Of a stretch of 64,000 nucleotides of DNA, positions 31,689-46,132 are shown one piece after another; the first letter of the stretch is position 1, and each line of letters starts with the position of its first letter. Origin of the DNA: Armatimonadota bacterium (GTDB lineage: Bacteria > Armatimonadota > Fimbriimonadia > Fimbriimonadales > ATM1); contig QEUM01000002.1 in the NCBI GenBank assembly GCA_003577165.1, forward strand, positions 124,001 through 188,000. The letters run 5' to 3'. The position numbers and the translations under genes are program-made. The notes beneath the pieces were generated by a model that worked only from the letters and a program-made list of their open reading frames with translations, did not search any database and was not told the DNA's origin.

Positions 31689-32753
31689 TCAAGCGGACTC
31701 GGAGACAAGCGGATCGCCTGCGCTCAATCCAAGCAAGGCGTCCTCGATCTCTCGATAACTCGTCATCTTCATGAGCGATTGGCGCATCGCCGCCGCTCCC
31801 GGAATGCCCTTGATGTAAAGTTGAATCTGTCCGCGCAAATTGCGCACGGCCCGCAGTTCGGCTGAGTCCTTGCGCTGGGTCCCGTACTCTTCGGACTCGT
31901 ACAGTTCGATTAGTGCACGCAAATGTTCGAGAGCCACACCCGCCCTTTCACGGATCGAAGGCTCCTGCGATTGTGGAAGGCCTTGAACGCCCTCGATAAT
32001 CCGCCGAAGCGCCCACGGATTCGAAATCGCCGCACGGCCGACCATCACGCCGTCACAGCCGGTGATCTCGAACATCCGCAAGGCGTCTTCGGATTCACGT
32101 ATGTCGCCGTTGCCAACGAGAGGAATCGAGACTGCCTTGCGAAGTTCCTCGATCAGCTTCCAATCCGCCTCGCCCTCGAAGCCCTGTTTCGCAAAGCGCG
32201 CGTGGAGGGTGATCATCTTCGCGCCGACGCCTTCGAACCGCTTTGCTAGCTCCGGCGCAGCGAACTGCGAGTGGGTCCAACCTGCGCGCACCTTGACGGT
32301 GACCGGAACTCGGACAGCGCGCACGACCTCCCTCACGATTGCCTCGGCAGTATCCGGGTCCTTAAGGAGTGCGGCTCCGCTCCCGGTCTTGCAGACCTTC
32401 GGAACCCAGCAGCCCATGTTGATGTCCACGAGATCTGCGCCCATCTCTTCGCAGATCCGAGCCGTCTCGGCCATCACTCCAGGTTCGTCGCCGAAAATTT
32501 GAACGCCGAGCGGCCGCTCCCCCGGGTGAATCCGGATCTTGTTAAGCGATCGCTTCGAACCGTGCTCGATCGCCCTTGCGCTCACGAACTCGGTGAACAT
32601 GAGACCTGGCCCTGCGATGCGCTTCACGAGGAGGCGGAACGCGGCATTCGTCACATCCTCCATCGGAGCCAAAAGAATCGGGGGGGCGATCGAGATCGCC
32701 CCCACCCGAAATGGCCTGACGGCCTGACGTGCGGCGCTTACGGATTTAGGAAC
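31689..32753 (-). CDS. dusB: tRNA-dihydrouridine synthase (DusB-like)
   Basis: 354 residues from TTG 32753. The FMN TIM barrel begins with PPILLAPMEDVTNAAFR; the tRNA-binding/catalytic segment DINMGCWVPKVCKTGSGAALL carries the catalytic Cys in the usual position, and GNGDIR and GVMVGRAA bind FMN phosphate. It reduces uridines in tRNA D-loops. The start is inferred: AGGTG lies 4 bases upstream and the family needs residues before GAISI; it overlaps the subtilase stop by 16 bases. Confidence 0.92.
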   Translation of the reverse strand, partial: VPKSVSAARQAVRPFRVGAISIAPPILLAPMEDVTNAAFRLLVKRIAGPGLMFTEFVSARAIEHGSKRSLNKIRIHPGERPLGVQIFGDEPGVMAETARICEEMGADLVDINMGCWVPKVCKTGSGAALLKDPDTAEAIVREVVRAVRVPVTVKVRAGWTHSQFAAPELAKRFEGVGAKMITLHARFAKQGFEGEADWKLIEELRKAVSIPLVGNGDIRESEDALRMFEITGCDGVMVGRAAISNPWALRRIIEGVQGLPQSQEPSIRERAGVALEHLRALIELYESEEYGTQRKDSAELRAVRNLRGQIQLYIKGIPGAAAMRQSLMKMTSYREIEDALLGLSAGDPLVSESA

Positions 32754-35302
32754 CAACGCACCTGATCGATTGCGACAAGCCAGTTCGGCGTGTTGACGGG
32801 CCCGGACGCGATCCAACTGATACGTCCGCGCATCTGCATCGAACCCGCTTGAACGAACCGGGAAGGAGACGAGTTTGTGGAGTACTCGACCGCCAAATCT
32901 CCCGGCGTCTGAACACCGGTTCCGATCTCAACCCACTGGCTGGCGAGGAAGTCGAACAACTCCACCTTCCGGGTGAGGCCCACAGTGGACGCAGACGACT
33001 CGACGCGGAATGTGATCGCAGCCGGATTCGAGAAGGCAGCGTTCGTCGTGAATTCCACGCGCACGGGAGGCGTCGTCGGCGATGCCACGACACCCGCTCG
33101 AACCGCCGCTCCTGTGTTGTTGCTCGTCAGCGTATCCGCGACCGTCCCACCGACGAGGTTGCCGGGTCCGACGGCCATCGCTTGCGGCTGGGCGTAGTTC
33201 ATCACGCCTTCCACCGCAAGTGCGAAGTCCACGTCGAAGACGCCGGGCGTTTCGAGCCTCGCGTCTTGGTTCACCTCGGAGGCGAAGACCTCCACGGTCC
33301 ACACGCCGGGTTCCGGCGTGGGAATGATGACGTTTTCAACGGTGTCCTTCGTGTTTGCCACACCACCCGAGGTCGAGTAGTTGCCATTGAGAAGTCCGTT
33401 GTTGCCCCAGTACTCCACTCCCGACGGCGAAGTCACTTTGAGCGAGAGATCATTGATCCTGTGTTGCGCGGACGAGGTCGTGCCAGGCGGATCCGCGTAG
33501 ATCATTGTCGCCTGAAATTCGGGCGTTCCCGAAGCGACGTACATGCGGTAGGACTTCGACTGGAGATTTTGCAAGATGTCCGTCTCGTTGACGATGAACA
33601 ACTTGAAGCGGTTGTCCCACGCGTTCTTGACGTCAATCATGCCCCACCCCTGCTTCACTCGAGAGAGGTTGGCAGTGCTACCCGTGAACGGATACTGGCT
33701 CGCAGTCGCCGCCATGACTGCCTTCGCAGTCTGAGCGCGGGGTCGCGCGTCGAACACGGTGTTGCCGGTCACGGTCTGCCCGAAGGCGCCGTCTGCCCAC
33801 ATTTCGAAGAAGATCCCGAAGTGTCCAGCGGTGATCGGCGTTGCCGCGCTCGTCCCACCAAAGCCACTTGTGTAGGAAGTATCGTTCGTGTTGGACGTGC
33901 AGAGCACGTTGTCGTAGAAGTGGGTGAAGTCCGGCTTGATCCGACCATCTGCTGCGGGCCCAATGCTCGCGCCACTCCAGTAGTCGTCAGCTTTCGTGAG
34001 CGTGTTTAGGTGGTTCACGCCACCTACGGAGACGATGTTCTTAGCCCACGCCTGTGGCCGTGAGCTCGTCGTTCCCGCGTTGCTCTGCGACTGACAAATC
34101 AGAAAGTCCAGTCTCCAGATGATGTCATCCATCGTGTACGAATCGGCAGTGTAGGCAGTCGTCAGAGCAGATCCCCACGAATTCGTTTGGAAGACCGCGT
34201 AGTAAGGTGACTGAAGAAGCGCTTCGGTGTGGGTGAAGCGGTTCCCGAGAGATCCGTAGTAGGCAACGATTCCCTGGCCTTCCGGGATTACACCGCGTCC
34301 CGCTGGATTCGCTGCGCCACTGCCGAACACGATGCCAGTGGTCGAGGTGCCGTGGCTGTTGCTCGATGAGTTTGTCCGGACAAGCAGAGGGTGCAGTTGG
34401 AACGCCTGGTGAGTGACTCGGCACCCGCTGTCGAGCACTTCGCCTCGAACTCCTTCGCCCTTGTATCCTGCGATTCCCTCCACGTAGACTTGACCGCTGA
34501 TCTGTCGAGCGATGTCCATGTCGTCGCTCGGCGGGCCGTACGGTTCGATCCAGAGGACTTCGTCCTCGTGTGCCGCTGCGATGATCTGCTCCTTCGTGAG
34601 TCGCGCGCGCAGCACGTACATCTTCTCCTGAACTTCGCCGACGGTGGCTCCAGTCGCCCGGAGTTTCGCGGCCAGCCGCTCATTCTCTTCGACGACCGAA
34701 GTCATGGTCTGAATGTTGCACTCGTAGGGTCCAGCCCCACGGAAGTCCGGCGCGATTCGATACGCCGGCGCATACGGTCCGACCCACCGAACGTACGGAA
34801 GCGATGCGACTCGGGATCGAAGATCGTCCGACATTCGCACGATGTACGCGTGCGTGGCGAGGTAGTGAGTGATCTCCACTCCTAAAGAAGTGAGTTCGCG
34901 CCGAAACTCATCGAGAGGCTGGCACACGAACTGGACAATAAAGACCGACTCGGAAGGACGAGCTTCCAGGTCGTTTGGAACAGGAGGCACACCCCGTAGC
35001 GGGTCGAATTCACGGTACCGAAGATGAAGCACTCCGTCCGTGGACGTCGCCCGTGCGATGTTCTGACCATCGACGGAAATGGCATACCAGTCGTTCCGGC
35101 GGCCTGCGGACGCTTCCTGCCAGGTGATGACCCGGGTGGTGCCCTCGACGTCTACTTCCCGCAGGTTTGACACCCGGTTGTTCGTGACGCGCACTACCTC
35201 TCCATTGGAAAGAGCGATCGTGGTGTTTCGCCCTTGCGTGGTCACCTGAAGGCCGCTCTGTAAAGTCGCCGCCAGCGCGACGACGCTAATGAGATTCAGC
35301 AT
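32738..35302 (-). CDS. secreted S8 (subtilisin-like) serine protease with a shared C-terminal domain
   Basis: 854 residues from ATG 35302 (GGGGAG 7 bases upstream). A signal peptide (about 1-17) and a long propeptide-like region (to about 260) precede the S8 domain: Asp291 in VLDSGCRVTH, His317 in SHGTSTTG, Asn374 in TNSWGS and Ser485 in GTSAATP, so the triad is intact. A beta-sandwich P-like domain follows (about 575-705). The last ~146 residues match the C-terminus of the FG-GAP protein at 42802. Probably an extracellular or surface protease. Confidence 0.92.
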   Translation of the reverse strand: MLNLISVVALAATLQSGLQVTTQGRNTTIALSNGEVVRVTNNRVSNLREVDVEGTTRVITWQEASAGRRNDWYAISVDGQNIARATSTDGVLHLRYREFDPLRGVPPVPNDLEARPSESVFIVQFVCQPLDEFRRELTSLGVEITHYLATHAYIVRMSDDLRSRVASLPYVRWVGPYAPAYRIAPDFRGAGPYECNIQTMTSVVEENERLAAKLRATGATVGEVQEKMYVLRARLTKEQIIAAAHEDEVLWIEPYGPPSDDMDIARQISGQVYVEGIAGYKGEGVRGEVLDSGCRVTHQAFQLHPLLVRTNSSSNSHGTSTTGIVFGSGAANPAGRGVIPEGQGIVAYYGSLGNRFTHTEALLQSPYYAVFQTNSWGSALTTAYTADSYTMDDIIWRLDFLICQSQSNAGTTSSRPQAWAKNIVSVGGVNHLNTLTKADDYWSGASIGPAADGRIKPDFTHFYDNVLCTSNTNDTSYTSGFGGTSAATPITAGHFGIFFEMWADGAFGQTVTGNTVFDARPRAQTAKAVMAATASQYPFTGSTANLSRVKQGWGMIDVKNAWDNRFKLFIVNETDILQNLQSKSYRMYVASGTPEFQATMIYADPPGTTSSAQHRINDLSLKVTSPSGVEYWGNNGLLNGNYSTSGGVANTKDTVENVIIPTPEPGVWTVEVFASEVNQDARLETPGVFDVDFALAVEGVMNYAQPQAMAVGPGNLVGGTVADTLTSNNTGAAVRAGVVASPTTPPVRVEFTTNAAFSNPAAITFRVESSASTVGLTRKVELFDFLASQWVEIGTGVQTPGDLAVEYSTNSSPSRFVQAGSMQMRGRISWIASGPVNTPNWLVAIDQVRWFLNP

Positions 35303-35411
35303 TGGATACTCCCCTATAGATTCGTGGGTCTGAGCCCCCACACAGTGTATCGCAAGGCTGGCCGTTCACCGCACCGGGACCGGCTCTTCCGCCCCGGAAA
35401 AAGACCAGTTT

Positions 35412-36116
35412 TCATCCCGTGGCCGTCAGAGTGCGGCGAGCCGGCAGTCGAACCTCCAACAAATGCTCCCAGAGCGCTCCTAATGCGTCCACAACCGCCT
35501 TCGCCCCTCGGAGGTACTCAGGGGGCCCCTCCAACTCCCTCAGCTTCCTCAGGCTGATCGCCACCGCAGGCGACACCGGGATGTGTCGGAGCGGCTCGTC
35601 AGACTGCACGATCGTGCCATCGGATGTGGAGATCCAAAGTTGTCCTCCATCGCCGTACTCTGCGCTGGCGAACGACGGCGCGAATCCGACGCCTTCCATG
35701 AGTCGAATGTCGCCCCAACATAAGGGCGCTAACGGCTCCCTGGCGTGGCAGATGCCGTGAAGAACGGTCACGGCAAGTTCGAAGCCGTGGAGAACAGCGC
35801 CACCCGCATGGATCGCTTTGTCGAGGATTTCGGCCCACGCGCTCGCTGCTGCGATCCGCTCGAATCCGAGGCGCAATTCGCCAAACCCGGCGACGGGCTG
35901 AGCCTGAGTGACGTAGAGGGTTCTCCCTGCCGCCAGTTGGAAGTCGGCCACGCAGAAGGGTTCGGTCACACCCGCCAGTTTCGAACCGCCCTTTCGGGCG
36001 CCCCTTGCCACCGCGGTGATCTTGCCCGCCTCGCGAGTCAAAAGAACGATGCGCCGGTCGGATTCGCCTGAATCCCACCGGCGCAGTACGATCCCTCGTA
36101 CCGTTCGTGTCGACAA
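35412..36116 (-). CDS. recO: DNA repair protein RecO
   Basis: 234 residues. The N-terminal OB fold starts VRGIVLRRWDSGESDRRIVLLTRE with the typical RGARK turn near residue 38; a helical C-terminal part follows. The usual zinc cysteines of RecO are not obvious (only single Cys near residue 133). TTG 36116 starts 2 bases after the stop of the upstream membrane protein, placing recO at the end of the DUF6754-type locus. It works with RecR, encoded at 26741. Confidence 0.88.
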   Translation of the reverse strand: MSTRTVRGIVLRRWDSGESDRRIVLLTREAGKITAVARGARKGGSKLAGVTEPFCVADFQLAAGRTLYVTQAQPVAGFGELRLGFERIAAASAWAEILDKAIHAGGAVLHGFELAVTVLHGICHAREPLAPLCWGDIRLMEGVGFAPSFASAEYGDGGQLWISTSDGTIVQSDEPLRHIPVSPAVAISLRKLRELEGPPEYLRGAKAVVDALGALWEHLLEVRLPARRTLTATG

Positions 36117-36117
36117 G

Positions 36118-36870
36118 TTAGGTGGTGGGGCCGAGCCGTAACCACTCGGTCAACAGGAACGTTGCCCGGTCGATGAACAGCACGAAACGCGTCATCATCG
36201 TCGTCCCGAAGATCGCGCCGAACCCGACCATCAAGAGCCAGCGGCCCAGTTGGGCGGACTTTTGAATCGTCTTGTTCTTCTGCTCAAACGAATAGAGGAA
36301 GTAGCTCAGCACCAGCAGCCACGTGATCACGACGATGAAGTTGTTGATCGCATCGGAGATGGTGACGGTTCCCGGCGGGAGGCCGGGCTGCATGAGCGTC
36401 CATTCGTTCGGAATGATCGGCTGAGCCTGATTCGCAATCTGAGGAATGAACCGGTTCTGGAACGCGAGGAACTGCTGTCCGGCCCAGAGGCCCACGATCG
36501 TGCCAAGCGGGATTCTGCTGAGCCACGCGTATTTCGGGCTGAACACGAAGAACCCGACAATGCCGACCGGTGCGACCGCCGCCCACAGCCAGTTTGAATT
36601 GGCGATTACATTTCCATCGGGGCCGACTTTCCCCACCATGGGAACCCACCACTGAGGATAGAACACGTCGTTCCAGATAATGTAGATTGAATATCCGGTG
36701 GCAAGCCCGACGAAGATGTGCTCGACAAGACGATAGAACTTGTTCTCCCGATAGAGAAGGGAATAGAGCCCGATGGTGAGGATCGCCGCGACGGTGATCT
36801 GCCAGCGGCCGTCCCCGAATAGCGTCCCGTAGGGGTCTTCAAATACCGACTGAGAAAGCAAACTGTTCAC
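36118..36870 (-). CDS. membrane protein F of the DUF6754-type locus
   Basis: 250 residues with six likely transmembrane segments (about 23-40, 49-66, 94-110, 118-136, 172-194 and 209-233). A loop between segments 4 and 5 (about 137-170) is Pro-rich and polar. No transporter motif is recognised. The GTG start overlaps the upstream stop (GTGA), and recO follows after one base. Function unknown. Confidence 0.8.
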   Translation of the reverse strand: MNSLLSQSVFEDPYGTLFGDGRWQITVAAILTIGLYSLLYRENKFYRLVEHIFVGLATGYSIYIIWNDVFYPQWWVPMVGKVGPDGNVIANSNWLWAAVAPVGIVGFFVFSPKYAWLSRIPLGTIVGLWAGQQFLAFQNRFIPQIANQAQPIIPNEWTLMQPGLPPGTVTISDAINNFIVVITWLLVLSYFLYSFEQKNKTIQKSAQLGRWLLMVGFGAIFGTTMMTRFVLFIDRATFLLTEWLRLGPTT

Positions 36871-37733
36871 TGTCGTGCCCCCATCTTCTTAACCCGAAAC
36901 ATCGCGACATTGCCCGCAATCACCGCCAGGATGAGCAGTCCTAACGCGAAGGCAAGAGGGCTCATGTATCGGAGCCCGGAGCCGTAGTTCTTGAACTGAG
37001 GATCCGTGAACTCCCTCGCCAGAAGCGTTTCCATGTCGTATGCGCCCTTCGCCCCCACGACCAGCCCGAAAAGTTGGCCGCTCACATAGTAGGGATAGTT
37101 CTCGGCGGCCATCACCGCTGTGCAGAAGAGACCGAGTTTTGTCTTGCCCCTCATCCGTTCGTACCAGCGGTTGATGGAGGACGACGCCGTCACCAGCACG
37201 ACGGCTTTTGCGTCCCTTAGGTCGTTGATGCCAGTGAGCACGGCCGAGTTTCTTCCGATCTTGGTCGCGAGTTCATCGACCAGCCGAGTCGCCATGCCGT
37301 TTACGTGGCCTTCGGCGTTCGGATAGTAACCGGCGATCGCGTAGTCTTGGCCCTCCTTGTAGTTGTTGTTGCCGGGCTCCTTGACCAGCATCTCCAGCAC
37401 GTCCCTCGCAACCTGGGGAGCCTGAGGATCGATCGAAGTGAGGACAAACCTCACTTTCTTCCTCATGAGGAGCCGCATAAGCGATTCGAAGTGGCCCCTC
37501 GACTCGCCGCGCGTGCTGTTCGTCCAGTCGCTTTCGACCACGATGAAGTCGCCGGGCTGGAGACTGGACAGATAGGTGTACATGTCCTCGGCGGGCGGCG
37601 ACACGACGTTGGCGGTCTTCAGCGGCGCGATGACTTGCCAAATGACAAGGATGACGAGTATCAAGTAGAGCCAGCGCCGATCGAGCGTTTGTAGGCTATG
37701 CCAAATGGTCTGTTCCGGTTTCTGTTCGATCAT
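36867..37733 (-). CDS. membrane-anchored alpha/beta protein E of the DUF6754-type locus
   Basis: 288 residues. Transmembrane segments at about 18-37 and 262-282 enclose a ~220-residue soluble domain of alternating strands and helices (for example FIVVESDWTNSTRG, KKVRFVLTSIDPQ, AKAVVLVTASSS), suggesting a Rossmann-like fold that probably faces outside. No catalytic motif is recognised. It overlaps gene F by 4 bases and lies 11 bases after gene D. Confidence 0.8.
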   Translation of the reverse strand: MIEQKPEQTIWHSLQTLDRRWLYLILVILVIWQVIAPLKTANVVSPPAEDMYTYLSSLQPGDFIVVESDWTNSTRGESRGHFESLMRLLMRKKVRFVLTSIDPQAPQVARDVLEMLVKEPGNNNYKEGQDYAIAGYYPNAEGHVNGMATRLVDELATKIGRNSAVLTGINDLRDAKAVVLVTASSSINRWYERMRGKTKLGLFCTAVMAAENYPYYVSGQLFGLVVGAKGAYDMETLLAREFTDPQFKNYGSGLRYMSPLAFALGLLILAVIAGNVAMFRVKKMGARQ

Positions 37734-37744
37734 CGTTGCCCCTC

Positions 37745-38653
37745 CTAATCCACCGAAACTCCGCGCTCAAGTCCAAGCATGATTCGAATTCCCATTGCGA
37801 ATACTCCGAGCCCAAGTCCGAGGTCGATTGCTCGCAGAGCGGGTGTGTTCAACTTCAGAAGGATCCACTGACCGACGGATTCGATCCTGAGGTTTCCCGC
37901 CACCGAGTCCGGGTTGATCCAACTCGTAAGGGCGATTCCAAGCGGCACGAAACTGAGCAGGACCAGCAGCGCGGCCGCCATCATGATCGTCGCCTCGATG
38001 GAGCGAATTCTGAACGCCCGGTATGCCGCGGACAGAATGAAGAATGCGATCAGGCTGAACATTGCCGCGTCGAGCGTCTGTAACCCCTTGTCGAAGAGGA
38101 GGTCGTACGCAGCGTACATATTCGTCGCCTTGAGTTGCTCCTCTGTCATTAGTCGGTACTCCACGGAACGCTCCATACCGAATTTGGAGAACCCGATGTA
38201 TGCCATGGCGATCAGGCTGCTGAGGAGAACCAGACTGAAGAGCCAGTTCGGATCCCGCTTCAAGAGCCTGCGCACGTGCAGTCTGAAGATGCTAAACACG
38301 CCGAGGGCGAGGAGAATTCCGGTAAGAAGTTGGCTCAGCCTCGACAGGATCGGCACGGTTTCGGAATAGTCATAGGACAACCCGAAGAACCACTGCCTGA
38401 CGACTTCTTGGCCTTCCTCCGTGATGCGGTACTTCGGCAACACCCACTCGAGGAAGTACAGAAATCCGGCTATGAACGTGATGGACACCACGACCGGACG
38501 CCGCATGTTGCTCGGCGCCCGCGTCAGAAGGAACAAGAGTATCGAAACGACGAGAACTGTCCCGACGATGAGCAACCATTTGCTCTGATCGCTAGGAAGC
38601 AGCGAGAAACTAGACGGGGTCTGGTCCTGTGCCAGCAAACTCGTGATGTTCAT
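37745..38653 (-). CDS. polytopic membrane protein D of the DUF6754-type locus
   Basis: 302 residues with about seven transmembrane segments (about 26-44, 53-71, 103-124, 137-155, 200-216, 222-245 and 275-295). A charged loop (about 156-195, GMERSVEYRLMTEEQ) sits between segments 4 and 5. No recognised family motif. It starts 3 bases after the DUF6754-like gene. Function unknown. Confidence 0.8.
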   Translation of the reverse strand: MNITSLLAQDQTPSSFSLLPSDQSKWLLIVGTVLVVSILLFLLTRAPSNMRRPVVVSITFIAGFLYFLEWVLPKYRITEEGQEVVRQWFFGLSYDYSETVPILSRLSQLLTGILLALGVFSIFRLHVRRLLKRDPNWLFSLVLLSSLIAMAYIGFSKFGMERSVEYRLMTEEQLKATNMYAAYDLLFDKGLQTLDAAMFSLIAFFILSAAYRAFRIRSIEATIMMAAALLVLLSFVPLGIALTSWINPDSVAGNLRIESVGQWILLKLNTPALRAIDLGLGLGVFAMGIRIMLGLERGVSVD

Positions 38654-38656
38654 GAA

Positions 38657-39529
38657 TTACTCCCTCGACAGCTTCGTGATGTACACGAAGAACAGTTGAT
38701 CCTTCGACGGATGCTCCTGGCCCTCCACGACGTTGCCCTTCGCGACTTCGTCAGGAGAAACGCCCCCGAGCGCCTGGACCGAGTGCCAGATCACTGCGAC
38801 GATCAGGAAGAGCATGAACATCATCTTCGCCCAGTCGACGCCGACGAGGCTGCCGAGCAGAACCGGCTGCCGACCGAGGTACGCACTCGCAGCATAGAAC
38901 TCGTCGCCCAAGAGCACGTAGTCGCAAGCAGCGACGAAAAACGGCGTCTGCGTAACCTGCGTCGTCGCTGCGACCTGGATCGCTCCCACCATGTTCGCGT
39001 TCTCCGCCATGATGAGGGACTCTGCGAAGAACTCACCCATCATAAACGTCGCCGCGACCTTCTCGCGGTGAATCACGCCTGCGACCGCGGACGCGTAGGC
39101 AAATTGGCGGTCCGATACAAATCGCACGCTGTCGGGGTCGAACTGCTCGGGCACGCCTTCGCTTAGGTACACGTCGCGGATCATCTCCTGCGCCACTCCG
39201 AAGACGGCCGCGTCGAAGTTGAGGAGGCGGATGGGAGTCCCGAATCGCGCCGCGCTTCTCGCGATCGAAGCGAAAATCGTCAAGGCCTGCACTGCGATTC
39301 CGTCCAGCACGCCGAGACCTGGCGACATCAGAACCGGTCGTGCGGTCTCCGTCGCTCGGCCCACAGCCTCGTCGATCTGGTCGAGGCCTGCGATTCTGCG
39401 AATCGTGACAGCCGAAGACTTCTTGGCACGAGCGACGTTAAATAGGACGAAGACAAGCGCGATGCTGACCGTCCCGATGAGCATCCAGCCGTACTGTTTG
39501 TATTGGAGAAAACCGTTCTCGATGTCCAC
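38657..39529 (-). CDS. DUF6754-like membrane protein C
   Basis: 290 residues. A transmembrane segment (about 13-32) is followed by a soluble domain with the run EAVGRATETARPVLMSPG, then FVSDRQFAYASAVAG, MMGEFFAESLIMAE and FFVAACDYVLLGDEFYAASAYL, and a second membrane segment at about 222-240. From memory this is the DUF6754 pattern known from Chloroflexota, Armatimonadota and relatives, function unknown. GTG 39529 shares one base with the preceding stop. It is the most conserved-looking member of the six-gene locus. Confidence 0.82.
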   Translation of the reverse strand: MDIENGFLQYKQYGWMLIGTVSIALVFVLFNVARAKKSSAVTIRRIAGLDQIDEAVGRATETARPVLMSPGLGVLDGIAVQALTIFASIARSAARFGTPIRLLNFDAAVFGVAQEMIRDVYLSEGVPEQFDPDSVRFVSDRQFAYASAVAGVIHREKVAATFMMGEFFAESLIMAENANMVGAIQVAATTQVTQTPFFVAACDYVLLGDEFYAASAYLGRQPVLLGSLVGVDWAKMMFMLFLIVAVIWHSVQALGGVSPDEVAKGNVVEGQEHPSKDQLFFVYITKLSRE

Positions 39530-39840
39530 TACGAGGCTCCTTCGGACGCTTCCTGGGTACCGTCGTCCTTCGATTCAATCCTGCGAATCAGCATTTCGAT
39601 GTTCTCCCTCTTCGACAGGAATTGCGAGTAATCGTCCACGTTCTTGAACCCGAAGAGCGGCATCAAAAAAGGAGAAAAGGCCACGGCTGCGTGGCCCGCG
39701 ATGCCGGCGAGCGGCTTGTGCATCTCAAGAAACAGTATCGCGGGCACTTCGAGCCGCCGCTTCTTGATCTGGTCCACCGCCCGGTTGATCAGCCTCTCGG
39801 TTTCCTCCGGACTCAGGGGCTTCTCCCACATCTCCAGCAT
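39529..39840 (-). CDS. small protein B of the DUF6754-type locus
   Basis: 103 residues from ATG 39840, with GGAGA 7 bases upstream. The middle is distinctive: VPAILFLEMHKPLAGIAGHAA, then FSPFLMPLFGF, predicted as one or two hydrophobic helices dipping into the membrane, flanked by charged helices. I recall similar sequences beside DUF6754 genes but know no function. Its first 116 bases overlap the end of the upstream gene out of frame. Confidence 0.78.
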   Translation of the reverse strand: MLEMWEKPLSPEETERLINRAVDQIKKRRLEVPAILFLEMHKPLAGIAGHAAVAFSPFLMPLFGFKNVDDYSQFLSKRENIEMLIRRIESKDDGTQEASEGAS

Positions 39841-40270
39841 AGACTTGTCTCCAATACTCCACCGCAGCCCGTAACTCCTCCAGGTTGCCGTCCGCCGAGA
39901 GGAAAACCCCTCGAAATGGCGACAGTCGGCCGGGCCGATCCAGCGGCGACAGCTTAATCCCCGCCTCGCCGACGACAACGCGCCGAACGTCCTTCCAGCC
40001 GATCTGAGTCGTGCTCAGGCCGCATCTTCGGCTCGCGCCGCGACCGGATACTTCAAAATGGACGGGCAAGAGAAAGTCCGCGGTTCCGAAAAGTACTACC
40101 AGCGCCCCGAAAAGACCCATCAGCGGGATCCCCGTCATCACAACCCCAAAGGCTCCGCCCAAGACGGCGCCGGCCACAACGACCCAAACGCGCCTCGGCT
40201 GCCGCTTCGCCAAGTGAATGGTCCACCGGAGCACCGGCCCTTCTTGCGGTGTCCTCTCGTCCTCGCCCAT
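39725..40270 (-). CDS. two-TM protein A with PH-like domain, first gene of the DUF6754-type locus
   Basis: 181 residues. Two membrane segments (about 28-46 and 48-66) are followed by a small beta-rich domain (about 70-130) whose pattern GLSTTQIGWKDVRRV resembles bacterial PH-like membrane domains. The last ~40 residues are low-complexity and are read out of frame over the start of gene B, so they may be dispensable. It begins 16 bases after prs. Confidence 0.68.
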   Translation of the reverse strand: MGEDERTPQEGPVLRWTIHLAKRQPRRVWVVVAGAVLGGAFGVVMTGIPLMGLFGALVVLFGTADFLLPVHFEVSGRGASRRCGLSTTQIGWKDVRRVVVGEAGIKLSPLDRPGRLSPFRGVFLSADGNLEELRAAVEYWRQVYAGDVGEAPESGGNREADQPGGGPDQEAAARSARDTVS

Positions 40271-40286
40271 CTGGATTCCGGCAGGC

Positions 40287-41258
40287 CTACGAGTTAAACA
40301 GGCTGCTCACGGACAGGTCGAGGTGAATCCTCCGAATCGCCTCCGCCATGAGCGGAGCGGCCGGTAGGACCGTGAGTTTCGGGAACCGCTTCCGGTTGTC
40401 GATCGGAATCGTGTCGGTGCAGATGACCCGGCTTACAGGCCCCTCGCTCATCCGCTGAGGCGCGTTCGCGGAGAACACGGCGTGCGTGCATGTCAAGACC
40501 ACGTCGGTCGCGCCCCGCTTAAGGAGCGCTTCGACGCCCTGCATCACCGAATTGCCCGTGTCGATCATGTCGTCGATGATCACGCACTGCTTTCCCTCGA
40601 CGTCGCCGATGATCTCCATAACCTCGACCTTTCCGGGCTCGGGACGACGTTTTGCGATGATGGCGATCGGCTTCCGCAGCATTTCAGCCAGCGCCCGCGC
40701 GCGACCAACACCGCCCACGTCCGGCGATACGACGACCACGTCCTGGTCAGCGTATCCCTCTTGGATCAGGAACCGCCCGATGGTCGGGCCCAGGTAAAGG
40801 TGGTCAACCGGGATGTCGAAGAACCCTTGAATCTGCTCCGCATGCAAGTCGCACGTCAGCACGCGGTTCGCGCCGGCCATTGTGATGAGGTCTGCTATCA
40901 GCCGTGCTGTCACCGGCTCGCGCGGCTTGATCTTCTTATCCTGCCTCGCGTATCCGTAGTACGGCATCACGACGGTCACGCGCTTAGCGGAAGCGCGACG
41001 AAACGCATCCAGCATGATGAGAAGTTCCATGATGTTGTCGTTCGTCGGCGCACAAGTCGGCTGGATCAGGAACACATCGCAGCCACGGGCGCTCTCGTTC
41101 ACCTGCACCTGCGTCTCACCATCGCTGAATCTCGTGCAAGTCATGCGACCCATCTCGACGTCGAGATAGTCCGCGATGTCGTGCGCCAACTCCGGGTGAG
41201 CGTTGCCCGTAAACAACTTCAGTTGGGAAAGGTCGCCGTTCTCTGTGCCGTTTCTCAC
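40287..41258 (-). CDS. prs: ribose-phosphate pyrophosphokinase (PRPP synthase)
   Basis: 323 residues from GTG 41258, which overlaps the glmU stop as GTGA; an ATG at 41300 would add 14 residues and overlap glmU by 46 bases. It makes PRPP for nucleotides, His and Trp. Seen: LKLFTGNAHPEL, RFSDGE, the flexible loop YGYARQDKK, the metal-binding DLHAEQIQGFF and the PRPP motif VIIDDMIDTG. Confidence 0.95.
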   Translation of the reverse strand: MRNGTENGDLSQLKLFTGNAHPELAHDIADYLDVEMGRMTCTRFSDGETQVQVNESARGCDVFLIQPTCAPTNDNIMELLIMLDAFRRASAKRVTVVMPYYGYARQDKKIKPREPVTARLIADLITMAGANRVLTCDLHAEQIQGFFDIPVDHLYLGPTIGRFLIQEGYADQDVVVVSPDVGGVGRARALAEMLRKPIAIIAKRRPEPGKVEVMEIIGDVEGKQCVIIDDMIDTGNSVMQGVEALLKRGATDVVLTCTHAVFSANAPQRMSEGPVSRVICTDTIPIDNRKRFPKLTVLPAAPLMAEAIRRIHLDLSVSSLFNS

Positions 41259-42664
41259 TTCGCTTTCGACTCTCGTCTCTGCTGCTTCCGCTTTCGCCAT
41301 TGTTCTGCCCAGTTCTCCTTGTTGACTTGGCGGCTGCGGCCCATGCCGAGCGCGCCGTCCGGAACATCTTCCGTGATTGTGCTGCCTGCCGCTGTCATCG
41401 CTCCCTCCCCGATCGTTACGGGCGCGACGAGCGTCGAATTAGATCCGACGAACGCATCGTCTCCAATCTCGGTTCTATGCTTGTCAAATCCGTCGAAGTT
41501 GCAGGTGATCGTTCCGGCGCCGATGTTGGCACGCGCGCCGACCGTCGCATCGCCGACGTAAGTCAAGTGCGAGAGACTCGCGCCGTCGCGCACGATCGCG
41601 TTCTTCAATTCGACGAAGTTGCCGACCTTGACGTCCTTTCCCAACTCCGTGTGAGGCCGAATGTTCGCGAAAGGTCCGATCCTGCATCCGTCACCGATCC
41701 GCGCCCTATTCACGTGACTCATCATGATGGTCACGGCCTCACCAACCTCAGTCGACACGATCCGCGACGACGGGCCGATCTCGCAATCGACTCCGATTCG
41801 CGATCGTCCCTCGATGACGGTCATCGGGTGAAGGGTCGTGTTAGCGCCGATCTCCACGTCGAACTCGACGTAAGTGCTCGACGGGTCTTCGATGCTCACT
41901 CCGTTCTCCGCATGCAGCTTCAGGATGCGCTCCCGGAGCGTCTGCGACGCCTGCGCCAACTGCCACCGGTCGTTCACCCCCTTTAAAAGGTTGAAGTCCC
42001 GAACGGTGATCGTCTCGGTCCGACCGCCGGCCTTGTGGATTAACTCCGGCATGTCGGTCAGGTAGTACTCGCCCTTCGCGTTGTCGTTCCGTAAGCGCCG
42101 GATTAGATCTCGTAGGACGCGAATTCGGAACAAGTAGAAACTCGTACAGACTTCGCGTATCGCGCGAATCTCGTCGGTTGCGTCCGGCTCCTCGATGATC
42201 CGAACGACGCTGCCCCCCGCGTCGCGAATGATCCGCCCGTAACCGAACGGGTCGTCCAGCAGCGCGACGGCCAGTACGCAATCGGACTCACGCTCCTTCG
42301 CCGCTTCGAGCATCTGGCAGTACACAGTAGCCTCGATTAGCGGCGCGTCTCCCGGTGCGACGAACACGAACCCGTCCTCGGGAAGACGCTCCATGGCACA
42401 TGCCATGGCATGGCCGGTCCCCTTTTGTTCCGCCTGCTCGACGTAGTCGTAGCCGTCCCCGAGCGCCTCGATAACCTCGTCCTTCCCGTGACCCACGACG
42501 AGGATCGGCACTTCGACCCCCGCCTCCTTCATCGCTCGGCCCGCAAGGTCCGCCATAGGCACCCCGCACACGCGGTGGAGCACCTTCGGCAGGGGAGACT
42601 TCATGCGAGTCCCTTTGCCGGCGGCGAGAACTACTCCAGAAAGATGCGGCACCCGTGAGACCAC
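41255..42664 (-). CDS. glmU: bifunctional UDP-N-acetylglucosamine pyrophosphorylase / glucosamine-1-phosphate acetyltransferase
   Basis: 469 residues. The N-terminal uridyltransferase starts with LAAGKGTRMKSPLPKVLH (about 13-30) and has KGTGHAM; the C-terminal left-handed beta-helix (about 255-440) shows the hexapeptide pattern, with GNFVELKNA and YVGDATVG and the acetyl-CoA site. It makes UDP-GlcNAc for peptidoglycan. GTG 42664 is chosen; a GTG four codons later is possible. With prs it heads the leftward series that contains the DUF6754-type locus. Confidence 0.95.
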   Translation of the reverse strand: MVSRVPHLSGVVLAAGKGTRMKSPLPKVLHRVCGVPMADLAGRAMKEAGVEVPILVVGHGKDEVIEALGDGYDYVEQAEQKGTGHAMACAMERLPEDGFVFVAPGDAPLIEATVYCQMLEAAKERESDCVLAVALLDDPFGYGRIIRDAGGSVVRIIEEPDATDEIRAIREVCTSFYLFRIRVLRDLIRRLRNDNAKGEYYLTDMPELIHKAGGRTETITVRDFNLLKGVNDRWQLAQASQTLRERILKLHAENGVSIEDPSSTYVEFDVEIGANTTLHPMTVIEGRSRIGVDCEIGPSSRIVSTEVGEAVTIMMSHVNRARIGDGCRIGPFANIRPHTELGKDVKVGNFVELKNAIVRDGASLSHLTYVGDATVGARANIGAGTITCNFDGFDKHRTEIGDDAFVGSNSTLVAPVTIGEGAMTAAGSTITEDVPDGALGMGRSRQVNKENWAEQWRKRKQQRRESKAK

Positions 42665-42801
42665 CGAAAGGAGGCTCCATTTTGCACGACCTCGGCCTCC
42701 CCAGGCGCCCGAGGCAGCCCAGCAGGAATGCGTATCAAACGATCCCTCACGAATCTCCTATGTTCGAACCTGCCTAAGGGCAACAGAGGAGGAAACAAGA
42801 A

Positions 42802-44358
42802 ATGAACCGCTTATCAATCGTGGCGTTCGCGGCGTGCCTTATCCCTGCAGCCGCGTTCGCCCTCGCTTTTTCCGGGCCGAACAACCTCGCGACCGGCGAA
42901 CGGCCCGCTGGCGTCGCCGTCGGCGACTTCAACGGGGACGGGCGAACCGACATCGCCGTCGCCACGGACAACCTTGACAAGATCGAAGTCTTCTTCGGGG
43001 CCGGTGGAGGGGCGTTCTCGGCTCCGACCGCCTACCTCACAGGCGCCGGAACGGGCCCCGATGCGCTAAGAGCCGCTGACGTGGACGGCGATCTCGATCT
43101 GGACCTGGTGTTCACCCTGCATAACGTCAACCAGATCGGAACTCTCATCAATTCAGGCGGCGTGTTCGCCCTCGGTCCCACGGGAGCGACCGGTGTGAAT
43201 CCGATCGGCCTCGCATCTGGCAACCTGAACGCCGACGCGCTGCCGGACTTCGTCGCTGTGAACCGAGACGACAACAGCATCACTGTGCTGCTGAACACGG
43301 GTGGGGGCTTCGCAGCCTCGAATGTCGCCGTGGGGCTGGATCCTCGGTCGGTCGCGCTGGGCGACCTTGACGGAGACGGAGACAGCGACGCAGTCGTCAG
43401 CAATCACGACTCGCGCACCGTGAGCGTCCTCTTCAACTCGGCGGGCACTCTCGGCTCTCAAGTGACTTACTCGGTCGGCGGCAACGTCAGGCCCGCAGGC
43501 GTCGCCCTCGGGGACGTCGACGGCGACCTCGACCTCGACATCCTCGCCGCGACTTCCGGCAACGGATTGAACTTCGTCTCGGTGTTAAAGAACACCGGCG
43601 GCGTCTTCGGCGCGCCGATCAACTTCAACTCCGGGGGCGTAAATCCAGATTCGCTCGCCGTCGCAGACTTCGACCAGGATGGCGACAGAGACGTCGTCGT
43701 GACGAATCAGGATTCGAACACCATCGGCATCCTCGTCAACCCTGGCACGGGGACATTCGGAGCCGCAACGACGATGCCGACCGGCACGACGCCCGGGCCG
43801 ATCGCCGTGGGCGACCTCAACGGTGACTCCGGGCTCGATCTGGCTGTCTCGAATCGCGACTCGAACAACCTCTCGCTATTCATGAACGAGTCCGTTCCCG
43901 TCCAAGTCAATCCGACTGCCTTCTCGTTCTTCCGAGGACAGCAGGTCTCGGGCGGACTGTCGGACCTCTTGATCAGCGACGACCTTAAACTGGTTGGTAG
44001 GAACTTCATCGTTCTCACGCCGGGCGAAGCGCCGCTGCAGGTGGTCTTCGACGGAAGCGCTGGGGCCGTCACACCGACCGGACTGACGTTCACCCTTGAG
44101 GCCTCCGTCAGCACAGCCGGCCTCTCCCAGACGATCGAGATGTTCAACTGGCTGACAGGCCTGTATGAAACGGTAGACGCCAGGTCGGCTTCGACGGCCG
44201 ACTCGACGGTGACCGTGACGATTGCCACGAACCCGGGACGCTTCGTCTCCGGAACGGGTGCCGTTCGAGCGAAGGTGAGTTACAAGCCATCCGGGCCCAT
44301 CAACGCCGGGATTTGGCAAGCCAGGTTCGACTACGTCCACTGGATCATCGCGCGATAA
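42802..44358 (+). CDS. secreted FG-GAP/VCBS beta-propeller protein with a shared C-terminal domain
   Basis: 518 residues. A signal peptide (about 1-21) is followed by about seven FG-GAP repeats (about 25-360) with the recurrent VAVGDFNGDG / DGDLDLD pattern, calcium-binding loops that form an integrin-like propeller. Residues about 365-518 match the C-terminus of the subtilase at 32738. The SD GAGGA lies upstream of the ATG. It is probably a surface or extracellular binding protein; no enzyme domain is seen. Confidence 0.9.
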   Translation: MNRLSIVAFAACLIPAAAFALAFSGPNNLATGERPAGVAVGDFNGDGRTDIAVATDNLDKIEVFFGAGGGAFSAPTAYLTGAGTGPDALRAADVDGDLDLDLVFTLHNVNQIGTLINSGGVFALGPTGATGVNPIGLASGNLNADALPDFVAVNRDDNSITVLLNTGGGFAASNVAVGLDPRSVALGDLDGDGDSDAVVSNHDSRTVSVLFNSAGTLGSQVTYSVGGNVRPAGVALGDVDGDLDLDILAATSGNGLNFVSVLKNTGGVFGAPINFNSGGVNPDSLAVADFDQDGDRDVVVTNQDSNTIGILVNPGTGTFGAATTMPTGTTPGPIAVGDLNGDSGLDLAVSNRDSNNLSLFMNESVPVQVNPTAFSFFRGQQVSGGLSDLLISDDLKLVGRNFIVLTPGEAPLQVVFDGSAGAVTPTGLTFTLEASVSTAGLSQTIEMFNWLTGLYETVDARSASTADSTVTVTIATNPGRFVSGTGAVRAKVSYKPSGPINAGIWQARFDYVHWIIAR

Positions 44359-44378
44359 CCCTGCCGCGCTTACTCCCT

Positions 44379-44413
44379 CGGCGGCCGCCTCCGGGCGGCC
44401 GCCGCTCCTTTTC
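44379..44413 (+). terminator. rho-independent terminator after the FG-GAP gene
   Basis: A perfect 11-bp GC stem (44379-44389 and 44394-44404) closes a tccg tetraloop and is followed by ctccttttc. It begins 20 bases after the stop codon. Confidence 0.88.
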
Positions 44414-44464
44414 ACACCGACGTCGGGCAAGGGAGTCGGATGGCAGATCAGGCGTCTCCGGCGA

Positions 44465-44470
44465 TATAAT
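44465..44470 (+). promoter_or_regulatory. promoter -10 box for the membrane protein gene at 44522
   Basis: A consensus TATAAT lies just after the FG-GAP terminator and about 50 bases before the ATG at 44522. The -35 is poor (tggcag at 44441-44446, 18-bp spacer). Confidence 0.5.
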
Positions 44471-44521
44471 TTGCGAAGATCGGGCAGAACAACTCGTCAC
44501 ATCGTGTGGGAGGTGCACAAA

Positions 44522-46132
44522 ATGCAGAACTCTCGGTCTCGCTCTGGTTGGATAAGGGACCTGACACTCATCGGCGCATTGGCGTCGGTGTTCTTGGCCT
44601 TCGAGACATCCAAGCCTCTAATCGAGGAGATTTGGCTCTATGGCTGGTTATTCGGAACTTTAGTCAATCTGCTGGCCATCGCGGCGATCCCTCTGTTGGG
44701 CTTCTTTTCGTGGAGATGCGCGAGGCGCGAAGACAGCCGGACGCCAATCATGGTCCTCTTGTTTTGGATGCTCCTTTTCGCTGCCGCTTATGCGGTGTTG
44801 ATCGCCACTTTTACATCGGTACAGGTCCCGGAGTACGACATTGTAGTATCGATTAGCGCGACAGACGGTTCGCTGCCCCCCCGCTGGCAGGTACTCGACG
44901 CCGCCAGAGTTTTCCTTCTGCTTGATTCTCCCATTCACTTCGCGGCGATCCCGATGTGGATCGCAGTCGCCTTTCTCGGGAGGGCAGTGTATGTTCGCTA
45001 CAGGCCTACGTCCCAATGGGGGCCGAAGTGGACCGTCCGACACCTGGTAGTCGCGCTCGCCGTATCTCACCTAGCCTTAGCGATCCACGAGTCGCGAATC
45101 CTCGTCTACTTGTGCGAGTACGTGCAAGGAGCTTTCGCCATCCGACTGGAGGAAAGTCCCTATCTCGTTGGTTTGCTTGGCCCGCCGTTTGTCCTGATGG
45201 GTTGGGCCGAGTCGTTGTTCGCCTGGCCGGTTCTTCCCGGTTTCCTGTTCGGCGCCGTCTACATCGTGGGAAGGGCGACGATGTCTGCCGAACTCACGGA
45301 GGGGGGCGTCGCCATCCGTTCATTCGGCGCAAAACTTTGGTCTGCATCGTGGTCCAGCATCCGTCGGGTTGTGGCAATCGAGCACAACCGCCCCGCTCAC
45401 GATGTCATCGTGCACGCCCGCGCCTTTGGCTTTCTTCCCTACAGTTTTGGAGTCCACGCAAAGCACTTCACAGATGGGGCAAGACTTTGCAGTTCTCTGA
45501 TCGAAGCATGTGTGCAGCGAGGGATTCCAGTGGAGCGCCGCTCTTCACCGCGATGGGTGCCGGCACCCGCCTGGGCGCTGCTGATCGCGGGCGCAGGGCT
45601 TGCGGTTTGGGTGTGCGATGTCGCGTACATTGGCGGGCAGAACTACGCCAGTGACTATCCGTCGCCCGGCAATGTCGCCGCAATGCTTCGGCCGATGGAG
45701 CAGGCTGCTCTGTTTCTTTCCGCAGTCGTCATGATCGGGTGCGGCCTCGGCCTGCTCTCGGCCTACCACCGAGGCACGTTTCGGCCCGTACTCGCAGGTG
45801 CTTGGGTCTGGGTCTCGGTGCAGTTCGCCGAGCCGACCCACCTTTCGTTTCTCGTATCGATAGCGATTAACGCTATTCACAAGGCCATGCTGCAGCCAGT
45901 TCTGCCAATTCCCGATGCCACCATGCCGCCGAACGGACAGTTGGAATTGCTTGTGACGGCGATGCAGTACACGCCGTTGTTCGCAGGAATCGCGTATGTG
46001 ATAGGTACGATGGTCGGCTCGCGCCGGATGAGTCCAGGAGTCGAAAAAGTTGGCGTTAGAGAGCCTCTCTCACCGGCTCCAGTTCAGCGCTCTGCTGCAG
46101 AAGAGCAACAGTTCTCTCCCGTGTCTTACTGA
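44522..46132 (+). CDS. polytopic membrane protein of unknown function
   Basis: 536 residues from ATG 44522, preceded by GGAGGTG. About ten hydrophobic segments lie in two blocks (about 10-250 and 350-500). Between them is a ~60-residue soluble stretch (MSAELTEGGVAIRSFGAKLWS onward is its start; the SWSSIRRVV turn resembles a bacterial PH-like fold). The C-terminal tail is polar. No family was recognised. It is an isolated gene with its own promoter, converging on ispG. Confidence 0.72.
   Translation: MQNSRSRSGWIRDLTLIGALASVFLAFETSKPLIEEIWLYGWLFGTLVNLLAIAAIPLLGFFSWRCARREDSRTPIMVLLFWMLLFAAAYAVLIATFTSVQVPEYDIVVSISATDGSLPPRWQVLDAARVFLLLDSPIHFAAIPMWIAVAFLGRAVYVRYRPTSQWGPKWTVRHLVVALAVSHLALAIHESRILVYLCEYVQGAFAIRLEESPYLVGLLGPPFVLMGWAESLFAWPVLPGFLFGAVYIVGRATMSAELTEGGVAIRSFGAKLWSASWSSIRRVVAIEHNRPAHDVIVHARAFGFLPYSFGVHAKHFTDGARLCSSLIEACVQRGIPVERRSSPRWVPAPAWALLIAGAGLAVWVCDVAYIGGQNYASDYPSPGNVAAMLRPMEQAALFLSAVVMIGCGLGLLSAYHRGTFRPVLAGAWVWVSVQFAEPTHLSFLVSIAINAIHKAMLQPVLPIPDATMPPNGQLELLVTAMQYTPLFAGIAYVIGTMVGSRRMSPGVEKVGVREPLSPAPVQRSAAEEQQFSPVSY

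Follow-up and report, generated by a model that had tools for sequence, protein, structure and literature searches.

In the PilM-PilN-PilO and GspL alignment subcomplexes, a cytosolic protein of the actin fold is linked to membrane proteins that carry external domains. The textbook client of GlmL, a protein of the MutL family (PF13941), is glutamate mutase, and to our knowledge the characterised PF13941 members accompany B12-dependent mutases such as this one. The DUF6754 family (PF20539) has no described function. Here we examine a stretch of 64,000 nucleotides from an Armatimonadota bacterium (assembly GCA_003577165.1, contig QEUM01000002.1, positions 124,001 to 188,000; hereafter the window), in which six genes, A to F, lie between prs and recO and one of them, C, encodes a DUF6754 protein. 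We conclude that A-F are very probably the membrane part of a predicted eight-component system that forms one complex, the other two components being M, a protein of the MutL family, and L, a barrel-sandwich/KOW-like protein.

Each of the known systems resembles this one in part. M shares with GlmL/MutL (PF13941, NF040745) the ASKHA ATPase fold and a full-length Pfam match, but it falls below the curated cut-offs, its genome has no glutamate mutase, and its companions are L and the four membrane proteins C-D-E-F. L has a weak match to the barrel-sandwich domain of RnfC/NqrA-type proteins, but lies below cut-off, shows no redox motifs and is paired with an ASKHA ATPase rather than with Rnf or Nqr subunits. 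The combination of a cytosolic actin-fold protein with membrane proteins bearing external domains resembles PilM-PilN-PilO and GspL, yet no sequence relation was detected, D and F are polytopic, and no recurrent pilus genes lie nearby. An extra domain resembling the five-bladed propeller of GH130 beta-mannan phosphorylases (E 4.6e-4) occurs in a paralogue of D at a second locus of this genome family, C'-D', but not in the D protein of the window. C itself is a full-length DUF6754 member, and nothing was found on the eight-gene system that surrounds it. No paper mentioning DUF6754, PF20539 or PF13941 was found in the literature searched, other searches on GlmL/MutL returned nothing on such a system, and the main text of a paper on essential genes of Planctopirus (PMC10632474) mentions neither MutL nor glutamate mutase. 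Since no described system with these features was found, we class it as new as a system; two of its component families, DUF6754 and MutL/GlmL, are already named.

Recurrence and co-divergence of the gene cluster

To judge how widely the cluster is kept, PF20539 was searched in 291 Armatimonadota genomes, where it was present in 252, mostly within the order A-B-C-D-E-F, and in 14 control genomes, where it was absent. Twenty loci were fetched across the phylum. Setting aside three that belong to the C'-D' paralogues, 16 of the remaining 17 carried all six genes in the order A-B-C-D-E-F; in one of these, A and B were separated by other genes, and in another M-L stood between B and C. The single exception had no A and B nearby. 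A scan with the C alignment against one genome per species, from which the best 80 of at least 583 matching stretches were kept, gave among the kept stretches loci titled Poribacteria, Zixibacteria, Latescibacterota, Coatesbacteria, Stahlbacteria/WOR-3/TA06, Fermentibacteria, Eisenbacteria, Edwardsbacteria, Planctomycetota (Scalindua), a Gemmatimonad, Hyd24-12 and CSSED10-310. When the open reading frames (ORFs) of these loci were searched with iterated profiles, D, E and F came directly after C in nearly all loci where the contig allows, amounting to 96 complete quartets in 66 loci. The A family occupied the same position in 28 loci from several phyla, and the B family, found in 32 loci, directly followed A wherever A was present; the order A-B-M-L-C-D-E-F occurred in many loci, some of them from Planctomycetota. 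The preliminary description of this DNA had placed DUF6754 genes beside similar membrane proteins in Armatimonadota and had named their absence together elsewhere as its refutation; the set recurs both there and in many further phyla.

The four genes C to F also duplicate and diverge together. Their pairwise protein distances are correlated (r = 0.79-0.85, where the highest of 1000 permutations gave 0.07), although part of this simply reflects shared host-genome ancestry. The block C-D-E-F is repeated two or three times in tandem in eleven loci (L060, L066, L074, L093, L095, L099, L103, L106, L108, L111 and L130), which come from Zixibacteria and WOR-3/TA06, and of 49 modules in such tandem loci, 39 have for each of the four genes a nearest relative with one and the same copy index. 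Whole-block co-duplication is the pattern expected of cognate subunits within a single complex. The earlier proposal that the genes likely encode one complex is supported by their recurrence across phyla and by the joint duplication and divergence of the block. Possibly, the tandem copies form a hetero-oligomer of paralogous modules. Given the conserved order, the block duplication and the correlated divergence, the idea that unrelated genes merely lie together here, for which one could cite their lack of shared family names, is strongly disfavoured and has next to no probability.

The putative ATPase M and its probable partner L

The presence of C is matched by that of M. Among 195 Planctomycetota genomes, C was found in 60 and M in 59, with 57 carrying both, 3 only C, 2 only M and 133 neither (Fisher p 6e-43, phi 0.94), and L was present in 56. 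The 291 Armatimonadota genomes comprised 241 with both C and M, 11 with only C, 15 with only M and 24 with neither (p 7e-17), many of the discordant genomes being incomplete. In the phylum of the Gemmatimonad record, C occurred in 40 of 43 genomes and a real M match in 39 of these 40 (one a fragment), while the three genomes without C held only M-like fragments of at most 29 bits; M was likewise found in 36 of 40 C-bearing genomes of other phyla, and L in 57 of 61 relatives. Two reduced genomes (G132 and G133; 1.5 Mb, 97% complete) have neither C, M nor L, and offer a natural contrast for finding the trait that the system serves. Because M and C lie far apart in several Planctomycetota genomes, linkage alone does not explain the match between them. 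The p-values overstate independence, as the genomes are related by descent, and agreement across three phyla weighs more. The co-occurrence of C with M and L is near-obligate.

M matched Pfam MutL over its full length with 394-436 bits (433.5 bits in the test of ASKHA ATPase-fold membership). Two phosphate motifs, DCGSTTTK and GVDIGGATTD (GxDIGGATTD), are kept in all M proteins of the cluster type, and since both ASKHA phosphate-binding motifs are retained, M is a putative ATPase that likely hydrolyses ATP. The preliminary description had seen no obvious ATPase, which holds for the six genes but not for the system once M is counted. In the genome of the window, M and L are intact and lie on contigs other than that of A-F; M there is 56-59% identical to the cluster M proteins and 35-37% identical to a divergent second type, and L was recognised with E 6.4e-146. 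L gives weak matches to Biotin_lipoyl and to the barrel-sandwich domain of RnfC. A natural M-L fusion of 920 amino acids, of the divergent type, occurs in a Fermentibacteraceae genome (G315) that has three such long M-like ORFs; the fusion suggests that M and L work together. In one Armatimonadota locus (genome G045), a 242-amino-acid membrane ORF with no family match lies between M and L.

A role for M as a glutamate mutase chaperone was considered and rejected. M scored 231.9 bits against NCBIfam GlmL (NF040745; 475 required), 208 bits against the ornithine-pathway relative Or-4 (600 required) and 171.1 bits against the wider glmL family (glmL_fam; 204 required), and is thus below every curated cut-off; glutamate mutase E (PF06368) had no match in the genome of the window and 2 weak matches in 291 Armatimonadota, so that the mutase is virtually absent from the phylum.

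Predicted anatomy of the proteins and layout of the locus

C matched PF20539 with E 1.2e-83 (280.7 bits; curated cut-off 27 bits) over the full length of the domain (residues 15-252 on profile positions 12-249 of 257), in agreement with its earlier assignment to the DUF6754 type. None of A, B, D, E and F had a Pfam or NCBIfam match above cut-off, and it remains correct that no function is assigned to any of the six. AlphaFold2 models computed from the window protein and 56 relatives were obtained for C (predicted local distance difference test score 84.5, predicted template modelling score 0.77) and for E (91.0 and 0.86). Both consist of a membrane helix, a helix, six alternating strands and helices, and a membrane helix, so that one and the same Rossmann-like module seems to sit between two membrane helices in each. 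A Foldseek comparison with the Protein Data Bank (PDB), of the kind the preliminary description had proposed, gave no match at E<=1e-3 for either model; the nearest entries above that value were generic Rossmann-like folds, namely eIF2B, shikimate dehydrogenase and RCK for C and GT-B glycosyltransferases for E. Sequence searches of the PDB with profiles of M, L, C, E, D and F returned nothing significant.

The two modules apparently face opposite sides of the membrane. Mean counts of Lys/Arg were 4.3 and 2.1 on the domain side versus 1.4 and 0.9 in the tails for C (136 relatives), and 2.7 and 4.0 in the tails versus 1.9 and 1.7 on the domain side for E (119 relatives), from which the positive-inside rule predicts a cytoplasmic C domain and an E domain outside. 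In most relatives a signal peptide and an FN3 domain stand ahead of the helix, which is consistent with this placement of C: of 115 C proteins from the cross-phylum panel, 91% carry over 100 amino acids N-terminal to the DUF6754 domain, and FN3 scored above cut-off in two of the long C proteins tested. This N-terminal part is missing from the C protein of the window and from most Armatimonadota C proteins, and is not required for PF20539 membership. By hydropathy, a soluble domain lies between terminal membrane helices in both C and E; D shows 6-7 peaks, with six conserved helices, F shows 5-6 across its family, and A forms a hairpin in most relatives. Of the earlier reading of A as a two-helix, PH-like protein, the hairpin stands; the PH-like part comes down to one relative that matches bPH_6 below threshold (E 8.8e-4).

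The second DUF6754 locus, which has C' and D' without E or F and the same arrangement in two relatives (L034 and L035), adds a further hint. In D', some 300 additional residues follow the first helix, and it was a profile of the three sequences that matched GH130. Together, this GH130-like propeller and the FN3 domain of most C proteins are a hint of contact with glycan outside the cell, drawn from relatives and not from the genes of the window.

Table 1. Coordinates of the six cluster genes, their neighbours and related features elsewhere. Plain numbers refer to the window; other entries give genome or locus handle (G000, the genome of the window), contig where applicable, and positions.
Feature	Coordinates	Strand	Description
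prs	ends 40287		flanking gene; PF13793 and related Pfam families
A	40270-39725	minus	181-amino-acid ORF; membrane hairpin and small soluble domain; last ~38 amino acids overlap B
B	39840-39529	minus	small ~103-amino-acid VPAILFLExHKP-type protein; most likely start ATG 39840
C	39529-38657	minus	DUF6754 protein (PF20539); predicted membrane helix, six-strand Rossmann-like domain, membrane helix
D	38653-37745	minus	polytopic membrane protein; six conserved membrane helices; SAAYRAFRxRS motif
E	37733-36867	minus	predicted membrane helix, extracytoplasmic six-strand Rossmann-like domain, membrane helix; element order as in C
F	36870-36118	minus	protein with 5-6 membrane helices; invariant Glu50 (xEHxFVG), Arg119, Gln144, Arg228, Arg235
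recO	starts 36116		flanking gene; TIGR00613 (NCBIfam)
M	G000:C1:37789-39252		MutL-family protein, putative ATPase
L	G000:C18:172042-173154		barrel-sandwich/KOW-like protein
C'-D'	G000:C17:21987-22694 (L033:7827-10276)		second DUF6754 locus
M-L fusion	L114:17471-20233		Fermentibacteraceae
Membrane ORF	L167:10828-11556		between M and L in Armatimonadota genome G045

The six ORFs were read directly and stand on the minus strand as first described, between glmU-prs and recO, whose names were upheld by Pfam and NCBIfam profile matches. The junctions are as tight as claimed, from -4 to +16 bases apart from that of A and B: 16 bases from prs to A, an A-B overlap of 116 at the ORF level, a B-C overlap of 1, then 3 bases from C to D, 11 from D to E, an E-F overlap of 4 and 1 base from F to recO. 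The A-B overlap (39725-39840) is in different frames, and the last ~38 amino acids of A, being read over the start of B, are probably its least reliable part; this tail is probably not conserved. In the fetched panel, glmU-prs and recO as neighbours were limited to the order of Armatimonadota to which the window belongs, and this neighbourhood carries no functional signal. Recurrent flanking genes, sought across the loci, were only clade-specific ones, mostly housekeeping. An Rfam scan of 32000-46000 gave no match. Two predicted secreted proteins flank the region, a subtilase and an FG-GAP/VCBS-like repeat protein (32738-35341 and 42802-44358), and by eye they apparently carry the same C-terminal domain of about 100 residues.

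Proposed mechanism, alternatives and significance

In the mechanism that we propose, C-D-E-F would be the core of an inner-membrane complex with D and F as its polytopic membrane subunits, M and L would be its two cytosolic parts, and A and B would be accessory. M, acting through L, would use ATP to cycle the C-D-E-F bundle between conformations; the E domain would engage a ligand outside and the C domain one inside, and something, perhaps a glycan or glycolipid, would be moved or assembled across the membrane. Taken as a whole, an undescribed ATP-linked envelope complex of eight components with this core and this mechanism is a reading that we hold tentatively, as falling a little short of evenly balanced. 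That the predicted system is ATP-driven and transports or assembles something is, as a separate claim, the reading that we favour, though it is less likely than not. No ATPase or permease domain characteristic of ABC, RND or other named transporters was found in A-F or L.

Several points weigh against this reading. M and L are dispersed in the order of Armatimonadota to which the window belongs, so that what ties them to the cluster there is co-occurrence together with similarity, M being 57% identical to cluster M. Profile comparison detected no sequence homology between C and E, whose fold likeness is one of predicted element order only, and the glycan hint stems from a paralogue and from FN3, a common domain absent from the C protein of the window. 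The bulk of the evidence comes from metagenome-assembled genomes, and every step of the mechanism is one that we infer.

Among the alternatives, a non-transport scaffold survives best, though we consider it unlikely: M would resemble the actin-fold proteins FtsA or PilM in linking up with membrane partners, and would position an envelope structure such as a pilus, division or growth apparatus, with no passage of a substrate. The ASKHA fold of M, with its very weak FtsA/MreB-like matches, the extracytoplasmic domains anchored by membrane helices and the broad, housekeeping-like distribution would all suit such a role; pilus or division genes, however, are not among the recurrent neighbours, and a pure scaffold would not need the constant polytopic subunits D and F. 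Less likely again is a ligand-gated channel or sensor, in which C would be an RCK-like cytoplasmic regulator, E an external sensor and D/F the pore. In its favour, the two-faced arrangement of C and E fits sensing, the RCK domains of MthK appear among the Foldseek matches of C beside other Rossmann-like folds, and a potassium channel is matched very weakly by D (E 0.17); against it, no match lies below E 1e-3, TM-scores are 0.2-0.4, and near-obligate pairing with an ATPase would be unusual for a channel. A redox pump like Rnf or Nqr, with L as the RnfC-like part and D and F as membrane subunits, is improbable: it draws on the weak match of L to the RnfC barrel-sandwich domain (E 0.003-0.09), but all L matches are under the curated cut-off (RnfC_N, 18.0 of 25.6 bits), no Fe-S cysteine cluster was seen in the alignments, and no subunit tested matched an Rnf/Nqr membrane family in Pfam. 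More improbable still is that M simply serves, as GlmL does, to reactivate a B12-dependent mutase and co-occurs with the membrane genes only indirectly. The Pfam family to which it belongs is named for GlmL, but in many phyla the gene for M is placed within the membrane cluster, M scores under all three of the NCBIfam cut-offs given above, and the mutase itself is so scarce.

Returning to the eight-component envelope complex, we suggest, as a plausible but still tentative generalisation, that it represents a new multi-phylum class of envelope machine, in which a GlmL-type ASKHA ATPase that had no assignment before would power, by way of a barrel-sandwich adaptor, a quartet bearing isofold Rossmann-like domains on the two membrane faces to move or assemble an envelope component, as standard equipment in Armatimonadota and in several further groups. 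With the co-occurrence data, six membrane genes that had been orphans become a defined system of eight parts, and the annotation "glutamate mutase MutL" takes on a new meaning where the organism has no glutamate mutase. A system that keeps one gene order across many phyla, is near-universal in at least two of them and has an ATPase of its own probably serves a central cell function.

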